Assembly (NCBI GenBank): GCA_005772825.1
Contig: SXIP01000062.1
Location: 1 to 60,877, forward strand
DNA length: 60,877 nt
DNA from: Methylococcaceae bacterium
Lineage (GTDB): Bacteria; Pseudomonadota; Gammaproteobacteria; Methylococcales; Methylomonadaceae
Reading direction: 5' to 3'
Of this stretch, positions 12,395 through 27,870 are shown piece by piece. How positions within the stretch are numbered: the stretch's first letter is position 1; every line of letters begins with the position of its first letter. The position numbers and the translations under genes are program-made. The notes under the pieces are model-generated. The model had not been told where the DNA came from and did no database searches. It was given only the letters and a program-made list of their open reading frames with translations.

Positions 12395-12568
12395 CATTGG
12401 TGCCAAACACCTGTCGTGTTCGCTTATTTGGTATTGAAAATAAGCAGTGTTAAAAATAAGTTATGTTAAACGCGTTGCGTTAACGACAAACCGTTCGCAA
12501 CCTATTCAAACGACTTGAAATGTCAATGATTAATGGCTCACACAGGTTTTCCGGGAGAAATATCAAGC

Positions 12569-14356
12569 ATGGCCAAAGATAAAACAAAGCCCTTAGCTAT
12601 CACTGAAGTCGTCTTGCGAGATGCACATCAATCTATTTTGGCAACGCGGTTACGCATCGAAGACATGTTGCCGATATGTGAAAAGCTCGATCAGATCGGC
12701 TACTGGTCTATAGAGTCATGGGGCGGAGCTACCTTTGACGCATGTATCCGTTATTTGGGCGAAGACCCGTGGGAAAGATTGCGCCTTTTGAAAGCGGCAA
12801 TGCCTAAAACGCCCCAACAAATGTTATTGCGAGGTCAAAATATTTTGGGTTATCGGCATTATGCCGATGATGTGGTCGATAAATTTGTCGAGCGTTGTGC
12901 AATTAACGGTATGGACGTATTCCGTATCTTTGATGCGATGAACGATATGCGCAATATTGAACATGCGGTAAAAGCGGTGCTGAACACTGATGCTCACGCC
13001 CAAGGCACTATTTCCTATACGACCAGTCCGGTTCATACGACCGATATGTGGGTTAATCTCGGCAAGCAAATCGAAGACATGGGTGCGCATTCCATCTGTA
13101 TCAAGGATATGGCCGGTTTGCTCAAGCCCTATGAGGCTTTTGAGCTGGTCAGCCGCTTGAAACTTAGTACCGGTATCCCGATACACCTGCATAGCCATGC
13201 CACCACCGGTTTAAGCGTGGCCAGCATCATTAAGGCCGCAGAAGCGGGTATAGATAATGTTGATACCGCTATTTCATCAATGAGCATGACTTACGGTCAC
13301 AGTGCTACCGAAACCATTGTTGCCAGTCTTGAAGGCACTGAACGCTCAACCGGGCTTGATTTGGTCAAGCTGGAAGAAATCGCCCACTACTTCAGGGACA
13401 TACGCAAAAAATACGCGCAGTTTGAAGGCAGCTTGAAAGGTGTAGACAGTCGTATTTTAATTGCTCAGGTGCCCGGCGGCATGTTGACCAACATGGAAAG
13501 CCAGTTGAAAGAGCAGGGCGCGGCCGACAAATATGATGAAGTGATGCACGAAATTCCGCGCGTTCGTGAAGACCTTGGATTTATCCCGCTGGTGACGCCG
13601 ACTTCGCAAATTGTCGGCACCCAGGCGGTTATTAATGTCATGAGTGGCGAGCGCTATAAGACCATTACCAAAGAAACGGCGGGCGTGCTGAAAGGTGAGT
13701 ACGGAGCAACCCCCGCGCCGGTAAACAAGCAATTGCAAGAGCGGGTGTTGGACGGCGCACAGCCGATTACCTGTAGACCGGCTGATTTAATCGACTCGGA
13801 AATGGACAAATTAATTGCCGAGGTGCAGGAAAAGGCTAAAGCGGAAGGCGTCAAACTGGCAGCCAGCATTGAAGAAGACGCCTTGATTAACGGCATGTTC
13901 GCGCAGGTGGGTTGGAAATTCCTGGTCAATCGGGGTAATCCGTCCGCATTTGAAGCCGCCCCCGATCCGGAGGCCTTTGCCGCCGCCCGGGCACCTAAAG
14001 CAAATGCCGATAGTAAACCCACGGAAAACTACACGGTAAACGTAGACGGCAGGAATTTTAATGTCGCCGTAGCGCCTGCCGGAACGGTGTTGAATATTCA
14101 GGTCGGAGAAGCGGAAACCGCGCATGCGTCGTCGGTCAGCAGTTCCGGGGCGGTGGTTTATGCACCGATGGCGGGTAATATATTGAAAATACTGGTTAAT
14201 GTCGGCAGTTCTGTCGCTGAGGGCGAGATTGTTGTTATTATGGAAGCAATGAAAATGGAAACCGAAGTGCGTTCCAAATTTTCAGGCACTGTCAGTGCTG
14301 TTCATGTCAAGGAAGGCGGCGCAGTCGCCGGTGGTAACGCCCTGATTTCTCTATAA
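12569..14356 (+). CDS. oadA: Oxaloacetate decarboxylase alpha subunit (biotin-containing)
   Basis: OadA transfers the carboxyl group of oxaloacetate to its own biotin. The 595-residue product has an N-terminal carboxyltransferase barrel ([33 protein letters not shown], the metal site [10 protein letters not shown]), a conserved middle region ([20 protein letters not shown]), and a C-terminal biotinyl domain with the biotinylated lysine in [11 protein letters not shown]. An ATG at 12533 is in frame, but ATG 12569 behind GGGAGA yields [20 protein letters not shown], closer to the family start. Length matches the Klebsiella enzyme (about 596). It lies between oadG and oadB in the standard order. 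Confidence 0.96.
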
Positions 14357-14383
14357 AAACACTATTTACTCAAAGACAACACT

Positions 14384-15511
14384 ATGGAAAATCTTATTTC
14401 ACTCTGGCAAAGCACCGGTATTTACAATTTTACGGCCGGGCAGGCCTTTATGATGTTGGTGGGTTTCCTGTTGCTGTTTCTTGCTATTAAAAAGGGTTTT
14501 GAGCCCTTGTTATTATTACCCATAGGCTTTGGCGCAATCCTCAGTAATATTCCGGTTGCCGGTATTGCTGAAGAGGGCGGGCTTTTGTATTACCTATATT
14601 TCGGTATTAAAGCGGGTATTTTTCCGCTACTGATTTTTATGGGTGTCGGCGCCATGACCGATTTTGGTCCCATGCTGGCAAATCCCAAAACCCTGTTATT
14701 GGGCGCAGCGGCACAGTTCGGCATTTTTGCATCGCTCATCGGCGCATTGGCGCTTAACGTGGTGCCGGGACTGGAATTTACCTTAAAAGATGCGGCTGCT
14801 ATCGGTATTATCGGTGGTGCAGACGGGCCTACAGCAATTTATGTCGCATCAAAATTGTCTCCCGATTTATTGGGCGCTATTGCGGTAGCCGCTTATTCCT
14901 ACATGGCGCTGGTGCCGTTGATTCAACCGCCGATCATGCGGGCATTAACGACAGAAGATGAGCGCAAAATTGAAATGCAGCAATTGCGGGTGGTAGGTAA
15001 AACTGAAAAAATTGTTTTTCCGTTAATGTTGCTGTTTCTTTCTATCTTGTTATTACCGTCCGCGACACCGCTGATCGGCATGTTTGCGCTGGGTAACCTG
15101 ATGAATGCCTGCGGTGTGGTTGAGCGCTTAAGCCAAACCGCACAAAATGAGTTGATTAATATCGTGACCATTTTTCTGGGTTTGTCGGTTGGTTCAAAAT
15201 TGAGCGCCCATGCTTTTCTGCAAATGGAAACCCTGGGTATTCTGGCATTGGGTGCGATTGCTTTTGCCATTGGTACGGCCGCCGGCGTCATCATGGCGAA
15301 AATCATGAATAAATTCAGCGATACGCCGATTAATCCATTGATTGGCGCCGCTGGCGTATCGGCAGTACCGATGGCGGCGCGTGTCGCCAATAAACTGGGT
15401 CTGGAAAGCAATCCGCATAACTTTCTGTTGATGCACGCCATGGGGCCTAATGTTGCCGGTGTTATCGGTTCCGCTGTCGCTGCCGGGGTGCTGTTAAGCC
15501 TGGTTAAATAA
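14384..15511 (+). CDS. oadB: Oxaloacetate decarboxylase beta subunit (sodium pump)
   Basis: OadB is the multi-helix membrane subunit that decarboxylates carboxybiotin and couples this to Na+ export. The 375-residue product has repeated hydrophobic segments and the conserved signatures [15 protein letters not shown] (about residues 144-158, containing the essential aspartate), [13 protein letters not shown] and [19 protein letters not shown] near the C-terminus, where Na+-binding residues lie in the studied Klebsiella protein. It is shorter than the 433-residue Klebsiella form, but the C-terminal signature is complete, so it is not truncated. The gene follows oadA by 27 bases. Confidence 0.96.
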
Positions 15512-16368: not shown

Positions 16369-17241
16369 ATGGAATTACATAATGCACATCAAGATAGTCA
16401 AAAACAGCATCAGTTGTTAGTGATGCCTTTGGGATTCGGGCCGGCACTCGAAGACAAGCTCAAAAATCTTTTTCAGCTCGAACGGCAAAGCGATAGAGTC
16501 TATACAATAGCGCATCCGCCAATATCAGGACGCGTGGATATCTTGCTGGTGAATTACGATAACCCTTCGGCCTTACATAAAAAAGACACCTTGATTGCCG
16601 GTCGCTTTCCCGATGCCCATGTGGTAGGCGTAAGCCAGGGGCCCTTGCATGAGCCGCCCGTTTATCATATTCGGGGCATGTTGACCGCTTCCCGCTTGCT
16701 GAGTTTATTTGACAAGCTTCCCATCCATGCTCCCGGTTTCGCGCCGGCTGTGGTAGGACAACATAATCGTCCGCCTGCTCAGGAGTCGGCTAACTCCGAC
16801 GATTTCTCTCCTCCGCTTGAGTCTGATGCAAGTATTTCAGAACCATCTACTACCAGGAGTTATCGCGCACTGGTTGTCGACGACAGTATCGCCATACAAA
16901 AGTCCCTTGAGTTGAAGCTGGCGGCTCTGGATCAAATTGCGGGAATTGATTTTGCCGACAGTGGTGAAAGCGCGTTGGAAATGGCCGAAGCGGCACAGTA
17001 TGACTTGATTTTTCTGGATGTCATGATGCCGGGAATTGATGGTTACGAAACCTGTACCCGATTACGAAAAAAAGTGGAATACAAAAAAACACCTATTATC
17101 ATGGTGTCCGGCAAGACATCTCCGCTGGATGAAGTTAAAGGTGTTATGGCCGGATGCACCACGTATTTAACCAAACCGGTACAGGACGAGGCGTTTAATA
17201 AGCTAAGCCTGCGTGTGCTGGCATGGCTGATGAACCGTTAG
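16369..17241 (+). CDS. PilG-like response regulator with an unrecognised N-terminal domain
   Basis: The C-terminal part (about residues 163-285) is a complete receiver domain: VVDDS with the acidic pocket, the phospho-acceptor aspartate in LIFLDVMMPGIDGYE (about residue 217), the serine of IIMVSG and the lysine of YLTKPV. The first 125 residues or so are not a domain I recognise; they alternate beta-like and helical stretches (VDILLVNYDNPSAL, DAHVVGVSQG) and could be a degenerate receiver. A low-complexity linker rich in Pro, Ser and Glu joins the two. Position at the head of a Pil-Chp type cluster suggests a PilG-like role in pilus extension or output, but PilG itself is a lone receiver, so the extra domain is unusual. 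Confidence 0.8.
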   Translation: MELHNAHQDSQKQHQLLVMPLGFGPALEDKLKNLFQLERQSDRVYTIAHPPISGRVDILLVNYDNPSALHKKDTLIAGRFPDAHVVGVSQGPLHEPPVYHIRGMLTASRLLSLFDKLPIHAPGFAPAVVGQHNRPPAQESANSDDFSPPLESDASISEPSTTRSYRALVVDDSIAIQKSLELKLAALDQIAGIDFADSGESALEMAEAAQYDLIFLDVMMPGIDGYETCTRLRKKVEYKKTPIIMVSGKTSPLDEVKGVMAGCTTYLTKPVQDEAFNKLSLRVLAWLMNR

Positions 17242-17425: not shown

Positions 17426-17788
17426 ATGACTATTCAAAAAATATTGATCTGCGATGATTCACAAACCGATTTGATGAATCTGAAAAACGCTTTGCACAAC
17501 ACCGATTTTATTTTGATTACCGCCAGCGACGGCCAAGAGGCGATAAACAAGGCCCGGTCTGAAAAACCGGATGTTATTTTCCTGGATATCGTGATGCCTG
17601 GAATTGACGGCTATGCCACTTGCCGGACCTTGCAGAACGACCCTGAAACAAAACACATCCCGGTGATTTTTGTCAGCTCAAAGCATCAACGGGCCGATCG
17701 TGTATGGGCGCAAATGCAGGGCGCCAAAGAGTTGATCGCCAAGCCATATGAGGCGAGCCAGATTACTGCTGCATTAGCCGCGCTTTAG
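17426..17788 (+). CDS. pilH: PilH-like single-domain response regulator
   Basis: The 120-residue product is a lone CheY-type receiver: ILICDDSQTD, phospho-acceptor aspartate in VIFLDIVMPGIDGYA (Asp at about residue 54), VIFVSSK and the conserved lysine in LIAKPYE. In Pil-Chp systems the second receiver, PilH, draws phosphate from the ChpA kinase and affects pilus retraction; assignment here rests on gene order. It has AAGGAA as Shine-Dalgarno. A 184-base gap separates it from the preceding receiver gene. Confidence 0.85.
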   Translation: MTIQKILICDDSQTDLMNLKNALHNTDFILITASDGQEAINKARSEKPDVIFLDIVMPGIDGYATCRTLQNDPETKHIPVIFVSSKHQRADRVWAQMQGAKELIAKPYEASQITAALAAL

Positions 17789-17828: not shown

Positions 17829-18407
17829 ATGGAAGCCGAACATCTTAAAGTTGCTGACCGGAATAACGTTGGTTTATTGAACCTAACGCAAATTTCGGCA
17901 GAATTTCAAACTAACGGAACTGAAACGGATGGCGTCAATTCTGTTGCCGGTGAGGGAAATATCATGGGTTTTCGCGTAGGAGGTTTAGGCTTTTTGGTGG
18001 ATCCCGGTATTTATTGTGAGGTGATTGAGCGGTCACAGGTCAATCCGCTCCCTAATATGAAGCGTTGGTTTAGCGGATTGCTGAATCTTCGCGGCAATAT
18101 CGTACCGGTCATTGATCTGGCGATATTGCTGGGCGGGGCGCCGGCTGAAAACAAAAAGCGGCATCTTTTCGCTATCGATCAGGGAGAGAGGACGATGGCG
18201 CTATGGATAGACAGTCTGCCCGAAATACAGCAAGTCAGATTACAGTCGCCTGACCGGCTTGCGCCGCTGTCTCCGCTATTGGACCCTTATATCTCCGCCG
18301 CTTGTGTGGACAAAGACAGAATCTGGCTCAAAGTCAGATTTCCGGAGTTTTTCAAGGCGCTGGGTAATCAGGGATGGCAGAACGTAGACGGAGAACCGGC
18401 ACAATGA
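17829..18407 (+). CDS. pilI: CheW-like adaptor (PilI-type)
   Basis: The 192-residue product contains one CheW domain from about residue 45: it reads FRVGGLGFLVDPGIYCEVIE, then MKRWFSGLLNLRGNIVPVID, the hallmark of CheW folds, and ends with a segment similar to the second half of the fold. Such adaptors bridge the PilJ receptor and the ChpA kinase at the inner face of the membrane. The start has GGAG 10 bases upstream. The stop overlaps the chpA start (ATGA), implying translational coupling. Confidence 0.85.
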   Translation: MEAEHLKVADRNNVGLLNLTQISAEFQTNGTETDGVNSVAGEGNIMGFRVGGLGFLVDPGIYCEVIERSQVNPLPNMKRWFSGLLNLRGNIVPVIDLAILLGGAPAENKKRHLFAIDQGERTMALWIDSLPEIQQVRLQSPDRLAPLSPLLDPYISAACVDKDRIWLKVRFPEFFKALGNQGWQNVDGEPAQ

Positions 18408-21400
18408 CCAGGATATTTCAACATGAAGATGAAGAATCTATCATTAAGACATCCGCGGCAGATATAGGTTTTGATCATGAAAAGCAGGCCATTGAAAAGC
18501 ATATCGCCGCCATCGAACAGTATGCCGAGTCGGCGGGAGCCGATGGTTTTTATGGCTTACAGGATGCCTGCCTGATCATAGTGGAAGCCTTGCGGGAATT
18601 AAGCGACTTGCCGCAATCAGACGATTCTTTTTTTTCGAAAGCCGATTTATTGTCCATGCTGGACGAATTCCCGATTCTGGTAGAGGCCTATCGGCAGGAT
18701 CCGGGTTCGGTTGCCAGAGAATTGGTTATCACTCTTCATCATCCGGATCTCGATCTTGCGCTCAGCGATGATGATTTTGCCGTGCTGGCTACGGAACTTA
18801 ACGAAGGCAAGGTTGCAACAGATAGCCCCGGTCATGATGCCGATAGAAGCTCACTGCCGTTTTCACAGATGGCGCGCAATTTTTTACACAAGCGGTTCAT
18901 ACGCCCTGTTCAGAAAGCAGTCCATCAAGTCGGTATGTCAGTGCAACATCAGGATAATGAGCCCAGCGCCCCGACTTCGGAGGATAGCAAACCGCAGGCC
19001 GACAGCCTGCAATTCGGCTCATCACTGTTCAATCCGGAAAAACAGACGGTTGAAGATTATATTGCCGCAATCGAGCAATTTGCCGACCAGGCCGTACTTG
19101 ACGGCTATTACGGTCTGCAAGACGCTTGTCTGGTAATTGCCGATGCATTGCGTGAATTGCCGGAAGCATCGGCTCCGTTAAGATTCGATCTCCTGTCTAT
19201 ACTCAATCAATGGCCGCAATTGATGGTCGCCTATCGGCAGGAACCACAGGCTGCAATAGCCGAAATCATCAAAATACTTCGTCATCCCGATTTGAACCTT
19301 CCGCTTATGGAAGATGAATTTGTCATGATCGAGACTATGCTCGTTCAAGACTCGTCCGGCGCTGCGGAGCCTCAGGCGGCTGCGATTGACCAAATCTTGA
19401 CCGATGAGTCTTTGGCGCAAAACGACATGACCAAAGAGTCGGTCAATTTATCGAGCACCAGCCAAGGCGAGCCAGGTCCACAAGGGCAAACCGTCGGCGA
19501 TAGTATCTCTGTCATTGAGGCGTTTGCGGACCGGGCGGCCGAGAATCATTATTATGGTTTGCAGGATGCCTGCTTATTGATGGCGGAAGCCTTGCGGGAA
19601 TTGCCGCAGGAGGTATCGGCTTCTGCAAATCCCGATCTGTTGGCTTTGTTGGACGATTGGTCGGCACTAATCAATGCTTATCATGCAACGCCCGGGTCAA
19701 CGGCCGCGAGCATAGTCAAAATACTTCGCCATCCCGATTTGCATCTTCCTCTTTCAGAAGATGAATTTGCAATGCTTGAAACGGCGCTTGCAGAACCTGC
19801 TGATGCAGGGGACGGCGATGCGCGGCAAGAGCCGGTTGAAGAACCGGCTCCATTGTCGCCCGCGGTACTTGAGCTGGTCCAGTTACTGGTGATGCAAGCC
19901 GAATTGATTGACAGCGGTTTGCAGGGCGTTGTTCTCGACAATACGGCAGCACTGCCCGATGATTTGCAGCAGTTGGCAGAGTATCTGGAGCGTTACACGA
20001 AAGCGTCCGAAATGGCCGGCTTTGAAGGATTGGCGCGGATATGCGAACACGTACATGCGAATATCCTTCGATTGTCTGAAGACGTTCAGGCTTTTACGCC
20101 CGAAAGACTGGCCCTGTTGCGAGCCTGGATCGATCATGTCAAGGATTATCTGGCAGCGTTTAACGCCACTGATGCGGGCCAAGTAATGTTGGCTCAACTG
20201 GCCGATAGTCGCTGGATTTTGCCGCTTTCCGCCGATGCCGGCGCAGCGATCCTGACGCAAATCCAGGCTACGGATTCAACGGTGTCTTCGCAGGAAGAGG
20301 AGATTCGTGAGAAGGTGGCCAGCCCTGAGGATGTTTCCTTGGCTTTGCCTGATGATGTTAACCGGGAATTGCTGGAGCTTTTGCTGCAAGAACTGCCAAT
20401 CTATACACAACAGTTTTCCGAAGCGGTGCAGCGTATACAAGCGGGCGGCAGTGTACAGGATATCGAAGTTGCCCAGCGTATCGCGCATACCCTCAAGGGA
20501 TCCGCCAATACCGTTGGCGTCAAGGGTATCGCTGTTTTAACCCATCAGCTGGAAGATATTCTGACTGCCTGTGCCAAGGCGCATCGGCTGCCCGGGGATG
20601 CTCTCGCCAATGTGCTCATCGAAGCCGCCGATTGCCTGGAAAGCATGAGCGAATGCCTGATGGGCCTGGGTGATCCACCCGATGAAGCCCTGACAATCTT
20701 GCAGGGTGTGCTGGATTGGGCTAACCGGATAGAGCAAAACGGTATTCAGGAAGTCGACGATAAAGAAGCACCGGAGCCCACACGCAATCTGATTGATCGC
20801 GACGAACGGGAAACGTTAAGCCAGACGGAACCTGCGGAGCCGGCTTCGCAAAAGTCGCAGGCCGGGATGGTTCGAGTGCCGACCGAGCAGATCGATAACC
20901 TGTTCCGGCTCACCGGTGAAAGTATTATTCTTAACAGTCAGGCTAATGAACGCCTGCGCCGGATGAAACACCAGCTCCAGACCATGGAAACGCAGTTTTC
21001 GCTGTTGCAGCAATTGGGTGATGGCTTGCAAGAGCTGATTGATCTGAAGGACTTGTCGGGACGCTCGTTGGTGAATCTTGGCGCAGGATTTGACGCCCTG
21101 GAAATGGATCAATACAACGAATTGCATACCGCCAGTTTGCGTTTGGTCGAGGCTGCCGTCGATGCGCGGGAAATGAGTCTGGACGCCAGGAAAGAACTGG
21201 ACCAGATGGGCGAGGTATTGGAATACCAGCAACGTATGATCATCGATACCCAGGAAGCGATTATGACGACGCGCTTGGTGCCGGTATCGACGATTACGCC
21301 GCGTTTGCAACGGGGCATGAGACAAACCTGTCGCTTGACCGGCAAGCAAAGCGATTTGATTTTATCGGGCGAAACGTTGCTGATTGACAGCGACACGCTG

Positions 21401-22666
21401 AACTCAATGGTTGACCCTTTAATGCACTTGTTACGCAATGCGGTTGATCATGGTATCGAAAGCGAGTCCGAGCGCGTGGCAAAAGGCAAGCCGCGACACG
21501 GTCGGGTAAGCATCAACTTTGAGCGGGAAGGCAATAATATCCTGGTGAGTTGCCGGGACGACGGTCGTGGCCTCGACTTTGCCGCGATACGCGAGGCGGC
21601 GGAAAAGCAGGGCGTATTGAAGCCTGATCAGGCGGTTTCCGAAGATGACTTAAAGCGCTTCATCCTGCGTCCCAATTTTTCCACGCGGAGCCATTCCACC
21701 CAGACCTCGGGGCGTGGTGTAGGCATGGATGCTGTCTATTTTCAGGTTACCACACTCGGGGGCTCGCTCTCCCTGCATTCCGAACAGGGGCAAGGCTTGA
21801 CCGTTGAGCTGACGATGCCTCTGCCGCTGAGCCGGTCGCATGCGCTGTTGGCGCAGGCCGGCAATTACCGGGTGGCGATTGCGGGTAAAGGGATTATACA
21901 GGTCATCTATTCCGGCTCCGGCGAATTTATAACCGTCGATGGCGAACGTATGCTGCGGATAGAGGATAACAACTATCCGTTGATGTCGCTGAACAGGCTG
22001 TTGCGTGTTCCTCAGCCGCCCAGGGAAAGTCGGGCTCATAGCGCCGTATTACTGGTGCAATCCAATGAGAAAATTACCGCAGTCCTGCTGGATGCAATAA
22101 CCGACAGTCTGGATATCGTCATCAAAAATTTCGGTTTCTATATCAAGAAAATTCCGGGGTTTATGGGGGCGGCGATCATGGGCGACGGTTCGGTAGCGCC
22201 TGTACTCGATGTGCCTGAGTTACTCAGAATTGCGGATGCGGCATTGAATGCCGGTTATATTCGTGCGATTGAAACCATTGAGCAGGGAGCTATGCTGCCA
22301 AAGGTGCTGGTGGTCGATGATTCGCTCAGCCAGCGTCGGGCGCTTGAACAATTGCTGCATGATACCGGTTTTCATGTCATCTCGGCGCGTGACGGTATTG
22401 AAGCGGTAGAAATGCTTGAAAAGACCAAGCCGGATATTGTGCTTACCGATTTGGAGATGCCCAGAATGAACGGTATAGAGCTCGCCTCACATATTCGTTC
22501 TAAGGAAGGTACTAAAACCATTCCTGTCATCATGATTACGTCAAGAACGACGCAAAAACATCGGAAGATGGCCGAGGATGCAGGGGTTGGCTTTTATATC
22601 GTCAAACCGGTACGGGAAGATGACCTGCTGGCCAAGATGCAAATCTTGTTGGAAAAAGCACGATAA
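18404..22666 (+). CDS. chpA: ChpA/PilL-type hybrid sensor kinase with tandem N-terminal repeats
   Basis: This 1420-residue protein is the central kinase of the chemosensory operon. It begins with three similar units of about 100 residues, at about 29-132, 214-314 and 362-462, each carrying YGLQDAC and ending HPDL.L.L..D.F. A more divergent helical region follows to about 630, then one HPt domain with the phospho-histidine in HTLKGSA (about residue 695), a CheA-like dimerisation region, an HATPase with LLRNAVDHGIES, DDGRGLD and GRGVGMDAV, a CheW-like domain at about 1150-1300, and a C-terminal receiver with aspartate in IVLTDLEMPRMNG (about residue 1349). I choose ATG 18404 (ATGA overlap with the adaptor, GGAG upstream) over an in-frame ATG at 18374. 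Confidence 0.92.
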   Translation: MTRIFQHEDEESIIKTSAADIGFDHEKQAIEKHIAAIEQYAESAGADGFYGLQDACLIIVEALRELSDLPQSDDSFFSKADLLSMLDEFPILVEAYRQDPGSVARELVITLHHPDLDLALSDDDFAVLATELNEGKVATDSPGHDADRSSLPFSQMARNFLHKRFIRPVQKAVHQVGMSVQHQDNEPSAPTSEDSKPQADSLQFGSSLFNPEKQTVEDYIAAIEQFADQAVLDGYYGLQDACLVIADALRELPEASAPLRFDLLSILNQWPQLMVAYRQEPQAAIAEIIKILRHPDLNLPLMEDEFVMIETMLVQDSSGAAEPQAAAIDQILTDESLAQNDMTKESVNLSSTSQGEPGPQGQTVGDSISVIEAFADRAAENHYYGLQDACLLMAEALRELPQEVSASANPDLLALLDDWSALINAYHATPGSTAASIVKILRHPDLHLPLSEDEFAMLETALAEPADAGDGDARQEPVEEPAPLSPAVLELVQLLVMQAELIDSGLQGVVLDNTAALPDDLQQLAEYLERYTKASEMAGFEGLARICEHVHANILRLSEDVQAFTPERLALLRAWIDHVKDYLAAFNATDAGQVMLAQLADSRWILPLSADAGAAILTQIQATDSTVSSQEEEIREKVASPEDVSLALPDDVNRELLELLLQELPIYTQQFSEAVQRIQAGGSVQDIEVAQRIAHTLKGSANTVGVKGIAVLTHQLEDILTACAKAHRLPGDALANVLIEAADCLESMSECLMGLGDPPDEALTILQGVLDWANRIEQNGIQEVDDKEAPEPTRNLIDRDERETLSQTEPAEPASQKSQAGMVRVPTEQIDNLFRLTGESIILNSQANERLRRMKHQLQTMETQFSLLQQLGDGLQELIDLKDLSGRSLVNLGAGFDALEMDQYNELHTASLRLVEAAVDAREMSLDARKELDQMGEVLEYQQRMIIDTQEAIMTTRLVPVSTITPRLQRGMRQTCRLTGKQSDLILSGETLLIDSDTLNSMVDPLMHLLRNAVDHGIESESERVAKGKPRHGRVSINFEREGNNILVSCRDDGRGLDFAAIREAAEKQGVLKPDQAVSEDDLKRFILRPNFSTRSHSTQTSGRGVGMDAVYFQVTTLGGSLSLHSEQGQGLTVELTMPLPLSRSHALLAQAGNYRVAIAGKGIIQVIYSGSGEFITVDGERMLRIEDNNYPLMSLNRLLRVPQPPRESRAHSAVLLVQSNEKITAVLLDAITDSLDIVIKNFGFYIKKIPGFMGAAIMGDGSVAPVLDVPELLRIADAALNAGYIRAIETIEQGAMLPKVLVVDDSLSQRRALEQLLHDTGFHVISARDGIEAVEMLEKTKPDIVLTDLEMPRMNGIELASHIRSKEGTKTIPVIMITSRTTQKHRKMAEDAGVGFYIVKPVREDDLLAKMQILLEKAR
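18488..18800 (+). repeat. chpA N-terminal coding repeat, unit 1
   Basis: This is the first of three homologous coding units. It reads IEKHIAAIEQYAES at its start, has FYGLQDACLIIVEALREL in the middle and HHPDLDLALSDDDF near the end. It is the most diverged of the three at DNA level. Confidence 0.75.
19043..19349 (+). repeat. chpA N-terminal coding repeat, unit 2
   Basis: The unit begins QTVEDYIAAIEQFADQ, contains YYGLQDACLVIADALREL and ends RHPDLNLPLMEDEF. Its 3' part is strikingly similar at DNA level to unit 3, around 19268-19322 against 19715-19769. Confidence 0.8.
19487..19793 (+). repeat. chpA N-terminal coding repeat, unit 3
   Basis: The unit begins QTVGDSISVIEAFADR, contains YYGLQDACLLMAEALREL and ends RHPDLHLPLSEDEF. 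The near-identity of its 3' part to unit 2 suggests recent duplication or gene conversion. Confidence 0.8.
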
Positions 22667-22708: not shown

Positions 22709-22801
22709 ATGACACAAGAAAAGACAAGCTTGTTTAGCTGGCTTCTGCTACAGCGGAAATTTGAGCTATTCGGCAGAAACATCATTGAAAATGGGAAATG
22801 A
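22709..22801 (+). pseudogene. Relic of a second pilJ start (30 codons)
   Basis: An ATG at 22709 opens a 30-codon frame that ends at TGA 22799-22801. Its first 22 or so codons align without gaps with the start of the downstream pil[15 protein letters not shown] against [14 protein letters not shown], then QRKFELFG against WQKFLLLG, with much DNA identity. After that the similarity stops. This looks like the surviving 5' end of a tandem pilJ-type gene whose remainder was lost. Whether the 30-residue peptide is translated, and couples to pilJ, cannot be told; it ends 4 bases before pilJ. Confidence 0.8.
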
Positions 22802-22805
22802 TAAA

Positions 22806-25046
22806 ATGAAACAAGAAAATGCAAGCCTGTTCAGTCAGTTGCTCCTGTGGCAGAAATTTTTGCTGTTAGGCGTGATCATGCTCATCCTGGTGGTGATGCC
22901 TTTTTATTTATATATATCGGATGGGCAGAAACAGATCAATAACTACGAACGGGGACAGGCGGGTCTGATGACCGGGTCGAAATTAGTGGATATCCTGAAG
23001 ACGACTCAGAAACATCGGGGATTGGCTGCTGTGGTGTTGTTCGGCGATACCAGTAAGAAAGCCGACCTGCTCAAGGAAAATACACATCTTAACGAAGCTG
23101 TCTCTGCCTTCGATGTGACTGTCAGTGAATTGAGTTATCCTGAGCTGACGGAAAAATGGAACAGTATCAAGGATACCTGGCAGAAGATAAGTCAAGGTCT
23201 TGCCACCGGCAAAATCGACAGGGAAAGATTGTGGGAGCTGCATACGCACCAGATAGATTTGACGAAAGAAGCATTATTATTGATTCTCGGCAACTCCAGC
23301 ATGACTCTGGATGCGTTTCCGCAATCTTATTTCCTGGTTCAGGGCGTTATGATCAATCTGCCCGAATTATTTGACCGGATGGGTCTGGCCCGTGCTTATG
23401 GCCGGGAGTTCCTGGAAAGAGCCTTATCGGTTTCCAGCCTCAGTCCACAGGAACAGGCCGAAATGGAAAAATATCGCGCCTTGCTGGCGGAAACGGTCAA
23501 ACTGTCGCGTTCAAGTCTTAAGGCCAATGCCGCTTCGTTGCTGATGTCGGTAAGCCATATTCCCGAACTGAAAACCAGTCTGGAAACACGTATCAATAAC
23601 CTGTTTGATGTGGCGGAAGCACCACTTAAGCTGAGTGAGCAGATTATCGATACCAGAACAACGACCTATCCGTCCATTAACGATTTCCGTAGTAAATACA
23701 ACACAGCCACCGATGCGACTTTCGAATTGATTATCGCTTCTATAGATGCGTTGAACGGGCAATTCGACAAGCAGATCGGGCAAGTGCGCAGATCGCAGTA
23801 CATTATTATTTCTATCATGTTAATGGTATCGATGTTGGGTACCTTGATTGCGGTGTTTATCGTAGGTTCTATTACCGGCCCGGTGAATAAACTGGTGACG
23901 GTCATGAAAAAGCTGGCATCCGGTGACAGTACCGCCCGTTCCAATATGCAGGCCATCGATGAGCTTGGCGTTTTGGGGCGTCAGTTTGACGCCATGGTGG
24001 ATCAGCGTGAGGCATTAAGAGCGAGGATTCAGGAAGAGAACGAAACACTCAACAACTCGGTTATTGATTTGCTTCAAGCGGTGGCAAGACTGGCGCAACG
24101 GGATCTGACAGTGAAAGTGCCGGTGGCTGAAGACATTACCGGCCCGGTTGCCGACGCGTTGAATATGCTGTCCGGTGAAACCTCCAAGGTACTGAGCCGG
24201 GTGGTTCAAATCGCCCGTGACGTATCAAAGGTTTCTTACCAGGTACAAAGTCAGTCCGCGATAGTTATCGACGTGGCGGCGGAAGAAAAACGAGAAGTGG
24301 AGCAGGCGGCCATGGAACTTAACGAAGCATCGAGGGCCATGTTGGAGATCGCCAAGCTGGCGTTCTCCTGTAACGAAGCAGCCCAGAAGGCGATTAAAAA
24401 CACCGATAAGGCGCAGGAATCGGTTTTGGGTACGGTGCAGGGTATCACAACAATTCGCGATACCATCCGTGAAACTGAAAAACGTATCAAACGTTTGGGC
24501 GAACGTTCGCAGGAAATCGGCGGCGTGGTTAAACTGATTAACGAAATTTCGGAACGTACCCATATTCTGGCGCTTAACGCCTCCATGCATGCGGCTTCTG
24601 CCGGTGAAGCCGGACGCGGTTTTGCGGTCGTCGCCAACGAAGTACAAAAGCTGGCGGAAAACTCCCGTGAGGCGACCTCGAAAATTGCCGCGCTGGTTAA
24701 TAATATCCAGGTCGAGACCGCTGACACGGTAATCACCATGAATGATGCTATCAGCCAGGTGGTGCGCGGAACGGATCTGGCTCAGCAGGCGGGTAGTGAA
24801 ATGCGTGAAACACGTGATACGACCGCCAACCTGGTACTGCTGGTAAAACAGATTGCCGAAAGCTCGACAACGCAATCTGATACGTCCAGACGTTTGCTGG
24901 AGCGTGCTCAGCAGATTCAGAAGAGCACCAGTCAAACCTATGATCAGTTGCAGGAGCAAGGTCACCAGACCAACCTGTTGGTTGATCTATCCAATAGCCT
25001 GGTGACCTCGGTGGGCGTATTTACGCTGCCCAAGCAGGTAAGTTAG
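22806..25046 (+). CDS. pilJ: PilJ-type methyl-accepting chemoreceptor
   Basis: PilJ is the inner-membrane receptor of the Pil-Chp pathway, which senses surface contact through pilus tension. The 746-residue protein has membrane helices at about residues 15-36 and 332-355, a large periplasmic region between them, a HAMP segment ([19 protein letters not shown]), a second HAMP-like stretch, and a cytoplasmic signalling hairpin with [20 protein letters not shown]. The frame is open upstream (TTG 22761, ATG 22791), but 22806 is preferred because the protein then starts cleanly at the region also preserved in the upstream relic. It lies last in this operon, after chpA, whereas in Pseudomonas pilJ precedes chpA. 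No PilK methyltransferase is adjacent. Confidence 0.9.
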
Positions 25047-27138: not shown

Positions 27139-27870
27139 ATGACAAGCTATAATATTACCCTTGTTGTCCTGTCCTTTGCCGTCGCGGTAATGGGTTCTTT
27201 AATGGCTTTAATCATGACACGCGACGCACTGCTGCGCTCAGCCGACAGTCGTCGTGGCTTGGTTGCTTTGGCTGCACTGTGCCTCGGCGGTGTAGGCATT
27301 TGGTCCATGCACTTTATCGGTATGTTGGCGTTCGATATGAATGGCATGGACATGAACTATAATTGGTGGCTCACCGCCTTGTCTTTACTGGTGGGAATCG
27401 TCGTGGTTTATATCGGTTTGGCTCTGATGAGCCTGGGTGAATTCAGTTACTTCAGATTAATTCTGGCCGGCATTTTTGTAGGCTTTGGCGTTGCAGCAAT
27501 GCATTACACCGGCATGTTGTCGATGCAGGTACAGGCTGATGCGCATTGGAATGCGGCGATTATCGCCGCTTCGATCGGTATCGCGGTGGTTGCATCTATA
27601 GTCGCGCTGTGGTTGGCCGTTCATGTCAAAAAGATGTGGCAAATGATGGTGAGCGCGGTGGTTATGGGGGTTGCGGTGTGCGGCATGCATTATACCGGTA
27701 TGGCGGCTGTTGATTTTGTGCATAATCCGGCATTGCCTGCTGTTGAGCCGATGACCACAACCATAACGGTTTTTGCGATGAGTATCGCCGTGATCGATAC
27801 TGTGATTGCCGTGCTGGCGATGATGGTGGCTATGGTGGAAATGAATAAGCGCACCTTTACTTCTGTTTAG
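27139..27870 (+). CDS. Stand-alone MHYT-domain membrane sensor
   Basis: The 243-residue protein is nearly all membrane helices (about seven) and carries the three diagnostic MHYT motifs: SMHFIGMLAF, AMHYTGMLSM and GMHYTGMAAV. MHYT domains were predicted to bind a metal, probably copper, and to sense oxygen, CO or NO at the inner membrane. In most proteins the domain is fused to GGDEF, EAL or kinase modules; here there is no output domain, so any signal must be passed to a partner. AAAGGAG lies 8 bases upstream of the ATG, a strong Shine-Dalgarno. It converges with a pair of uncharacterised genes on the other strand. Confidence 0.9.
   Translation: MTSYNITLVVLSFAVAVMGSLMALIMTRDALLRSADSRRGLVALAALCLGGVGIWSMHFIGMLAFDMNGMDMNYNWWLTALSLLVGIVVVYIGLALMSLGEFSYFRLILAGIFVGFGVAAMHYTGMLSMQVQADAHWNAAIIAASIGIAVVASIVALWLAVHVKKMWQMMVSAVVMGVAVCGMHYTGMAAVDFVHNPALPAVEPMTTTITVFAMSIAVIDTVIAVLAMMVAMVEMNKRTFTSV

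Follow-up and report, generated by a model that had tools for sequence, protein, structure and literature searches.

A putative array of HPt-derived, phospho-dead domains in the N-terminal part of a Tfp-class ChpA homologue

The ChpA homologue encoded in the window (the whole 60,877-nt stretch of DNA analyzed here) carries in its N-terminal part four copies of a domain that very probably descends from HPt domains and has become phospho-dead. Family membership and acceptor loss are well supported, and the reading as a whole, i.e., HPt-derived, phospho-dead copies that would dock receivers and/or FimV, is given a probability of roughly 0.5 to 0.6. The gene is located in an operon with PilG/H/I/J-like genes:

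16369..17241, + strand: 290-aa protein with a C-terminal receiver domain (Pfam Response_reg, 2e-23, residues 168-276), a PilG-like response regulator according to this domain and the conserved gene order
17426..17788, + strand: 120-aa single-domain response regulator, PilG/PilH-like (Pfam Response_reg, 6.3e-26)
17829..18407, + strand: CheW-like adaptor, PilI-like (Pfam CheW, 7.5e-20)
18374..22666, + strand: ChpA homologue, a Tfp-class CheA of 1430 aa as called (open reading frame, Pfam domains)
22761..25046, + strand: PilJ-like chemoreceptor with HAMP and MCPsignal domains (Pfam)

The longest open reading frame of the ChpA homologue was called from position 18374, but translation probably starts at the ATG at 18404 (1420 aa), since this start codon shares an ATGA with the stop of the CheW-like gene located upstream. 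Pfam recognizes HPt, H-kinase_dim (22.9 bits, just below the cut-off of 23), HATPase_c, CheW, and a C-terminal Response_reg; the combination of HPt, dimerization, ATPase, CheW, and C-terminal receiver domains with the PilG/H/I/J-like genes of the operon identifies the protein as a CheA of the Tfp class. Most near relatives that were examined share the gene order receiver-receiver-CheW-ChpA-chemoreceptor. In the 290-aa protein, the normal receiver is preceded by an N-terminal stretch of about 150 residues that matches no Pfam model and whose pattern (DILLVNYD, VVGVS) resembles a degenerate receiver. Oxaloacetate decarboxylase sodium-pump-like genes for a biotin carrier and a membrane subunit are found upstream of the pilus operon (12533-15511), and positions 27139-27870 encode a membrane protein with repeated MHYTGM motifs, which has a sensor domain of the MHYT type and no output domain attached to it.

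The part of ChpA preceding the kinase core is composed as follows:

18479..18811, + strand: unit 1, aa 36-146, pseudo-HPt with Glu48 at the position of the HPt histidine
19037..19354, + strand: unit 2, aa 222-327, pseudo-HPt with Glu234 at the His position, modeled without helix A
19487..19801, + strand: unit 3, aa 372-476, pseudo-HPt with Glu382 at the His position
19847..20275, + strand: fourth, divergent copy with helix A, aa 492-634, recognized by profiles, with Glu539 at the His position
20306..20710, + strand: true HPt domain, aa 645-779, HTLKG with His705 (nt 20486-20488; Pfam PF01627, E = 7.8e-12; AF2 model)

The earlier note had placed three tandem repeats in this part of the protein, and they are indeed found there as units of about 105 residues each that are 48-58% identical (53/107, 51/107, and 60/103 in the pairwise alignments). 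Their mutual BLASTP E values range from 1e-30 to 1e-39, and comparison with shuffled sequences gave z scores of 38-51, with none of 1000 shuffles coming close. The motifs that had been called invariant, YGLQDAC and HPDL, are each found three times in the N-terminal part of ChpA (at aa 60, 246, and 394 and at aa 123, 304, and 453, respectively). HxxKG is absent from units 1-3, and the sole HTLKG of the protein is the one at aa 705, so that the description of a single true HPt downstream of units lacking the motif also holds. What had been overlooked is the fourth copy, which directly precedes the true HPt. It is weak in pairwise comparison (best z of 5.9, with unit 3) and clear in profiles, which unite all four copies of the window in one family.

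Loss of the phospho-acceptor is a property of the whole family. In 183 units, the column of the histidine is occupied by Gln (64), Glu (59), Asp (11), and His (3), and each of the four window copies has Glu at this site, where the true HPt has His705. Lys and Gly of HxxKG have likewise been exchanged, whereas the two Gly in the turn after the motif, ahead of helix C, persist in 109 and 135 of the 183 units. A functional HPt is defined by an acceptor His within HxxKG, which all four copies lack; they show instead the hallmark of the pseudo-HPts of FimL and the ChpA N terminus, namely Gln or Glu in place of the acceptor in a domain located N-terminal to the HPt of ChpA. Judged by these residues, transfer of a phosphate to that histidine would be impossible for the four copies, and they probably hold partners instead of passing phosphate. 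That another residue has taken over from His as the phosphorylation site, an idea put forward for 'Xpt' domains, is barely credible here: the Thr/Ser variants of HPt in Pseudomonas aeruginosa ChpA are counted as potential acceptors (PMC5812489, PMC12632253), but the site is Glu in all window copies and mostly Glu or Gln in relatives, and the Lys and Gly of the motif are gone.

The connection to HPt was established by profiles and runs through the fourth copy. Units 1-3 match the family of the fourth copy over the full length and in register (hhalign probability of 98.3%, E = 1.8e-14; 95.4% and E = 1.8e-8 with smaller alignments), and this family, including helix A, in turn matches the HPt of ChpA over 104 columns (92.5%, E = 5e-7). 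A profile from 138 units, seeded without any HPt sequence and with no unit overlapping an HPt, reaches the HPt of 38 among 46 ChpA proteins at E values of less than 1 (the best being 2.3e-7). These matches are in register and align the HPt histidine with profile position 10; two further matches were obtained, and none on reversed sequences. In the reverse direction, an HPt profile recovers pseudo-units in large ChpA proteins, again in register (E = 0.0026). Only the round of profile iteration that was free of HPt sequences was used as evidence; the third round takes in such sequences and was left out. Since the searched sets were small and made of ChpA loci, the E values of these profile searches rank the evidence and do not express database-wide significance. 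By these profile comparisons, the fourth copy is a homologue of HPt, and units 1-3 would share this ancestry through the fourth copy as a bridge.

That the units represent an unrelated helical domain resembling HPt by convergence is very unlikely. Direct comparison of units 1-3 with HPt yielded no significant profile match, both profiles retrieved only chance-level matches in a sequence search of the PDB, and Pfam has no model for the units and finds no match in units 1-3. The bridge, however, is significant and in register at both of its steps, and the Pfam Hpt model itself touches the fourth copy of the window, albeit weakly and below the cut-off (E = 0.073; 13.8 bits versus a gathering threshold of 24.6). 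The earlier note had left the choice between degenerate HPt-derived modules and a novel docking domain; the profile link via the fourth copy, the replacement of His and Lys-Gly, and the relatives described in the literature favor the former, and the idea of a novel, unrelated docking domain is weakened by the bridge. The units did not turn out to be an ordinary HPt or a well-characterized domain, the result that would have contradicted the note, since Pfam does not recognize them.

Structures were modeled for the fourth copy with the true HPt and for unit 2. For the fourth copy plus the true HPt (43 sequences), AF2 predicted two consecutive helical bundles with the same helix order (pLDDT of 93), and the best function-coherent PDB matches of this two-domain model in Foldseek are CheA P1 domains, a result that does not tell which of the two domains is matched. 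The model of unit 2 (113 sequences, pLDDT of 78.6) is all-helical and contains the helices expected for B to E plus an extra short one, with a disordered stretch at the expected site of helix A. Units 1-3 lack helix A. A Foldseek search of the unit 2 model against the PDB returned no significant match, with CheA P1 at rank 5 (E = 2.9).

Among relatives, the domain recurs in ChpA in variable copy number. The iterated profile found it in every ChpA homologue first retrieved, in two to five copies each. In about 50 ChpA proteins from the family and the class (Gammaproteobacteria), one to eight copies precede the HPt, and a kinase-proximal copy of the fourth-copy type is present in nearly all of them. 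Repeats of the window type occur in records named Crenothrix, Methylovulum, and Methylobacter, which assigns the window to a methanotroph lineage (Crenothrix/Methylovulum-like). In one bacterial family, ChpA reaches about 2400-2700 aa and combines a single HTLKG with five to eight copies. The 2576-aa ChpA of relative G206 (L107:937-8664) has eight pseudo-HPts beside one HPt with HTLKG, and Pfam recognizes one of these nine HPt-type domains. Copy number shifts within lineages: two nearly identical copies lie side by side in relative G060, and the first and second copies of the Crenothrix group form separate clades. With the N-terminal region of ChpA as the query, a match was obtained in 11 of 61 relatives, and the unit profile is present in 28 of 151 genomes of the family, which indicates a patchy distribution even inside the family. 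In two relatives, L115 (G358) and L112 (G259), the ChpA frame is broken (pieces of 370 and 183 aa; internal TAA), due to either decay or an assembly error.

The fluctuation from one to eight copies would also be expected if the units were non-functional relics or spacers left behind by domain duplication. Their counterparts in the literature point the same way: the His-less domains of P. aeruginosa ChpA have no known role (PMC10782961, PMC12632253), and the degenerate domains of Rhodobacter sphaeroides CheA3 were judged to be largely non-functional (PMC10782961). The sequences themselves argue against decay. The DNA of units 1-3 is about 60% identical, with an identity of 0.64-0.67 at the first codon position, 0.71-0.75 at the second, and 0.42-0.45 at the third; positions 1 and 2 are thus far more conserved than position 3 between all three units, which indicates old duplications and a protein sequence under selection, i.e., the units are subject to purifying selection. 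Moreover, the motif has been retained across genera, and the last copy, that of the fourth type, usually ends 10-21 residues before the HPt, as seen in nearly all of the approximately 50 ChpA proteins. Relics or spacers are accordingly an improbable explanation of the units.

Comparable domains are known from other systems. The ancestral family of the window copies would be CheA P1/Pfam Hpt (PF01627), as judged by profiles through the fourth copy; compared to it, all copies lack the acceptor His and the Lys-Gly, and units 1-3 lack helix A in addition. Some of the HPt domains of P. aeruginosa ChpA have the His and others lack it, and the latter have not been seen to be phosphorylated (PMC10782961, PMC5812489). 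This ChpA resembles the window protein in having acceptor-less HPt-like domains within a Tfp-class CheA, some of them missed by domain libraries (PMC10782961). It differs, in a comparison made by description only, in that it has six further HPts with His, whereas the window ChpA and most others examined combine one HTLKG HPt with acceptor-less extra copies; units 1-3 of the window protein, in addition, lack helix A. FimL is homologous to the N terminus of ChpA and has Gln at both acceptor sites (PMC3019171); it is likened to the window copies, again by description, as a carrier of HPt-like domains without His, but it is a separate protein, whereas the window modules are fused to the kinase. 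A mechanistic precedent for competition by a phospho-dead HPt is the plant pseudo-HPt AHP6, in which the His is replaced and which is thought to compete for phosphorelay partners (PMC7402358), although it belongs to an unrelated pathway, is a single-domain protein, and carries a change of His to Asn.

The proposed function of the array follows these precedents. Its ancestor would be an HPt like the one that lies ahead of the kinase core in this ChpA, with a later change of His to Glu and loss of Lys-Gly. The face by which an HPt normally contacts a receiver may then have been reused for docking without chemistry. Candidates for docking are the PilG/PilH-like regulators of the operon or the receiver of ChpA itself, which would be kept near the single active HPt (His705), and/or the polar hub FimV, which would be bound as it is by FimL in trans in Pseudomonas. 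Tandem amplification would provide more docking sites and might act through local concentration, buffering, or competition.

Docking as such and the identity of the partners are suggested by the literature on FimL. This protein interacts with FimV and PilG, polar recruitment of PilG requires both FimL and ChpA, and PilH is recruited by ChpA independently of the kinase activity of the latter (PMC10519157; for Acinetobacter, see also PMC9596432). FimV is encoded in the genome studied here. A FimL-like open reading frame was not detected at E values of up to 10, but since the assembly is 77% complete and FimL detection had no positive control, this absence weighs little. PF26379, which we take to be the FimL model, is absent from the Pfam library searched. 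In relative G460, a 509-aa open reading frame considered as a FimL candidate was rejected because it is a ChpA cut by the contig end. The presence of FimV without a detected FimL-like protein would be compatible with an array that takes over in cis the role played by FimL in trans.

HPt-derived units might alternatively bind a partner other than a receiver, e.g., only FimV, the chemoreceptor array, or the pilus ATPases, and so position the kinase and not the regulators. Conservation within the family is not restricted to the presumed docking face of an HPt, since besides G20, G23, and C28 the best conserved residues are W56, Y63, and L85 (numbered by profile position); the binding of FimV by FimL (PMC10519157) and the FimV gene of this genome are also compatible with such a partner. 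On the other hand, the best conserved short block of the window units, YYGLQDAC, coincides with the turn and the helix located next after the His-bearing helix of HPts, and in P. aeruginosa both ChpA and FimL act on PilG (PMC10519157), so that exclusive binding of non-receivers appears rather unlikely. Docking of receivers and/or FimV is retained as the preferred reading. As a tentative extension, a widespread and so far unrecognized family of phospho-dead HPts, multiplied in tandem in the N-terminal part of ChpA, may represent a built-in FimL, i.e., a multi-site dock that concentrates or sequesters pilus regulators beside one active HPt and whose copy number would tune steering.

Domains of this kind had already been noticed in P. 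aeruginosa ChpA and FimL, and the array of the window extends them and does not constitute a new kind of system. Its ChpA is a simpler natural version of about 1420 aa, compared to about 2500 aa, with one active HPt and an array of pseudo-HPts carrying Glu. One active HPt next to a clean pseudo-HPt array in a smaller protein would make docking separable from phosphotransfer. Pfam does not see the family, which is therefore undercounted when CheA architectures are surveyed.
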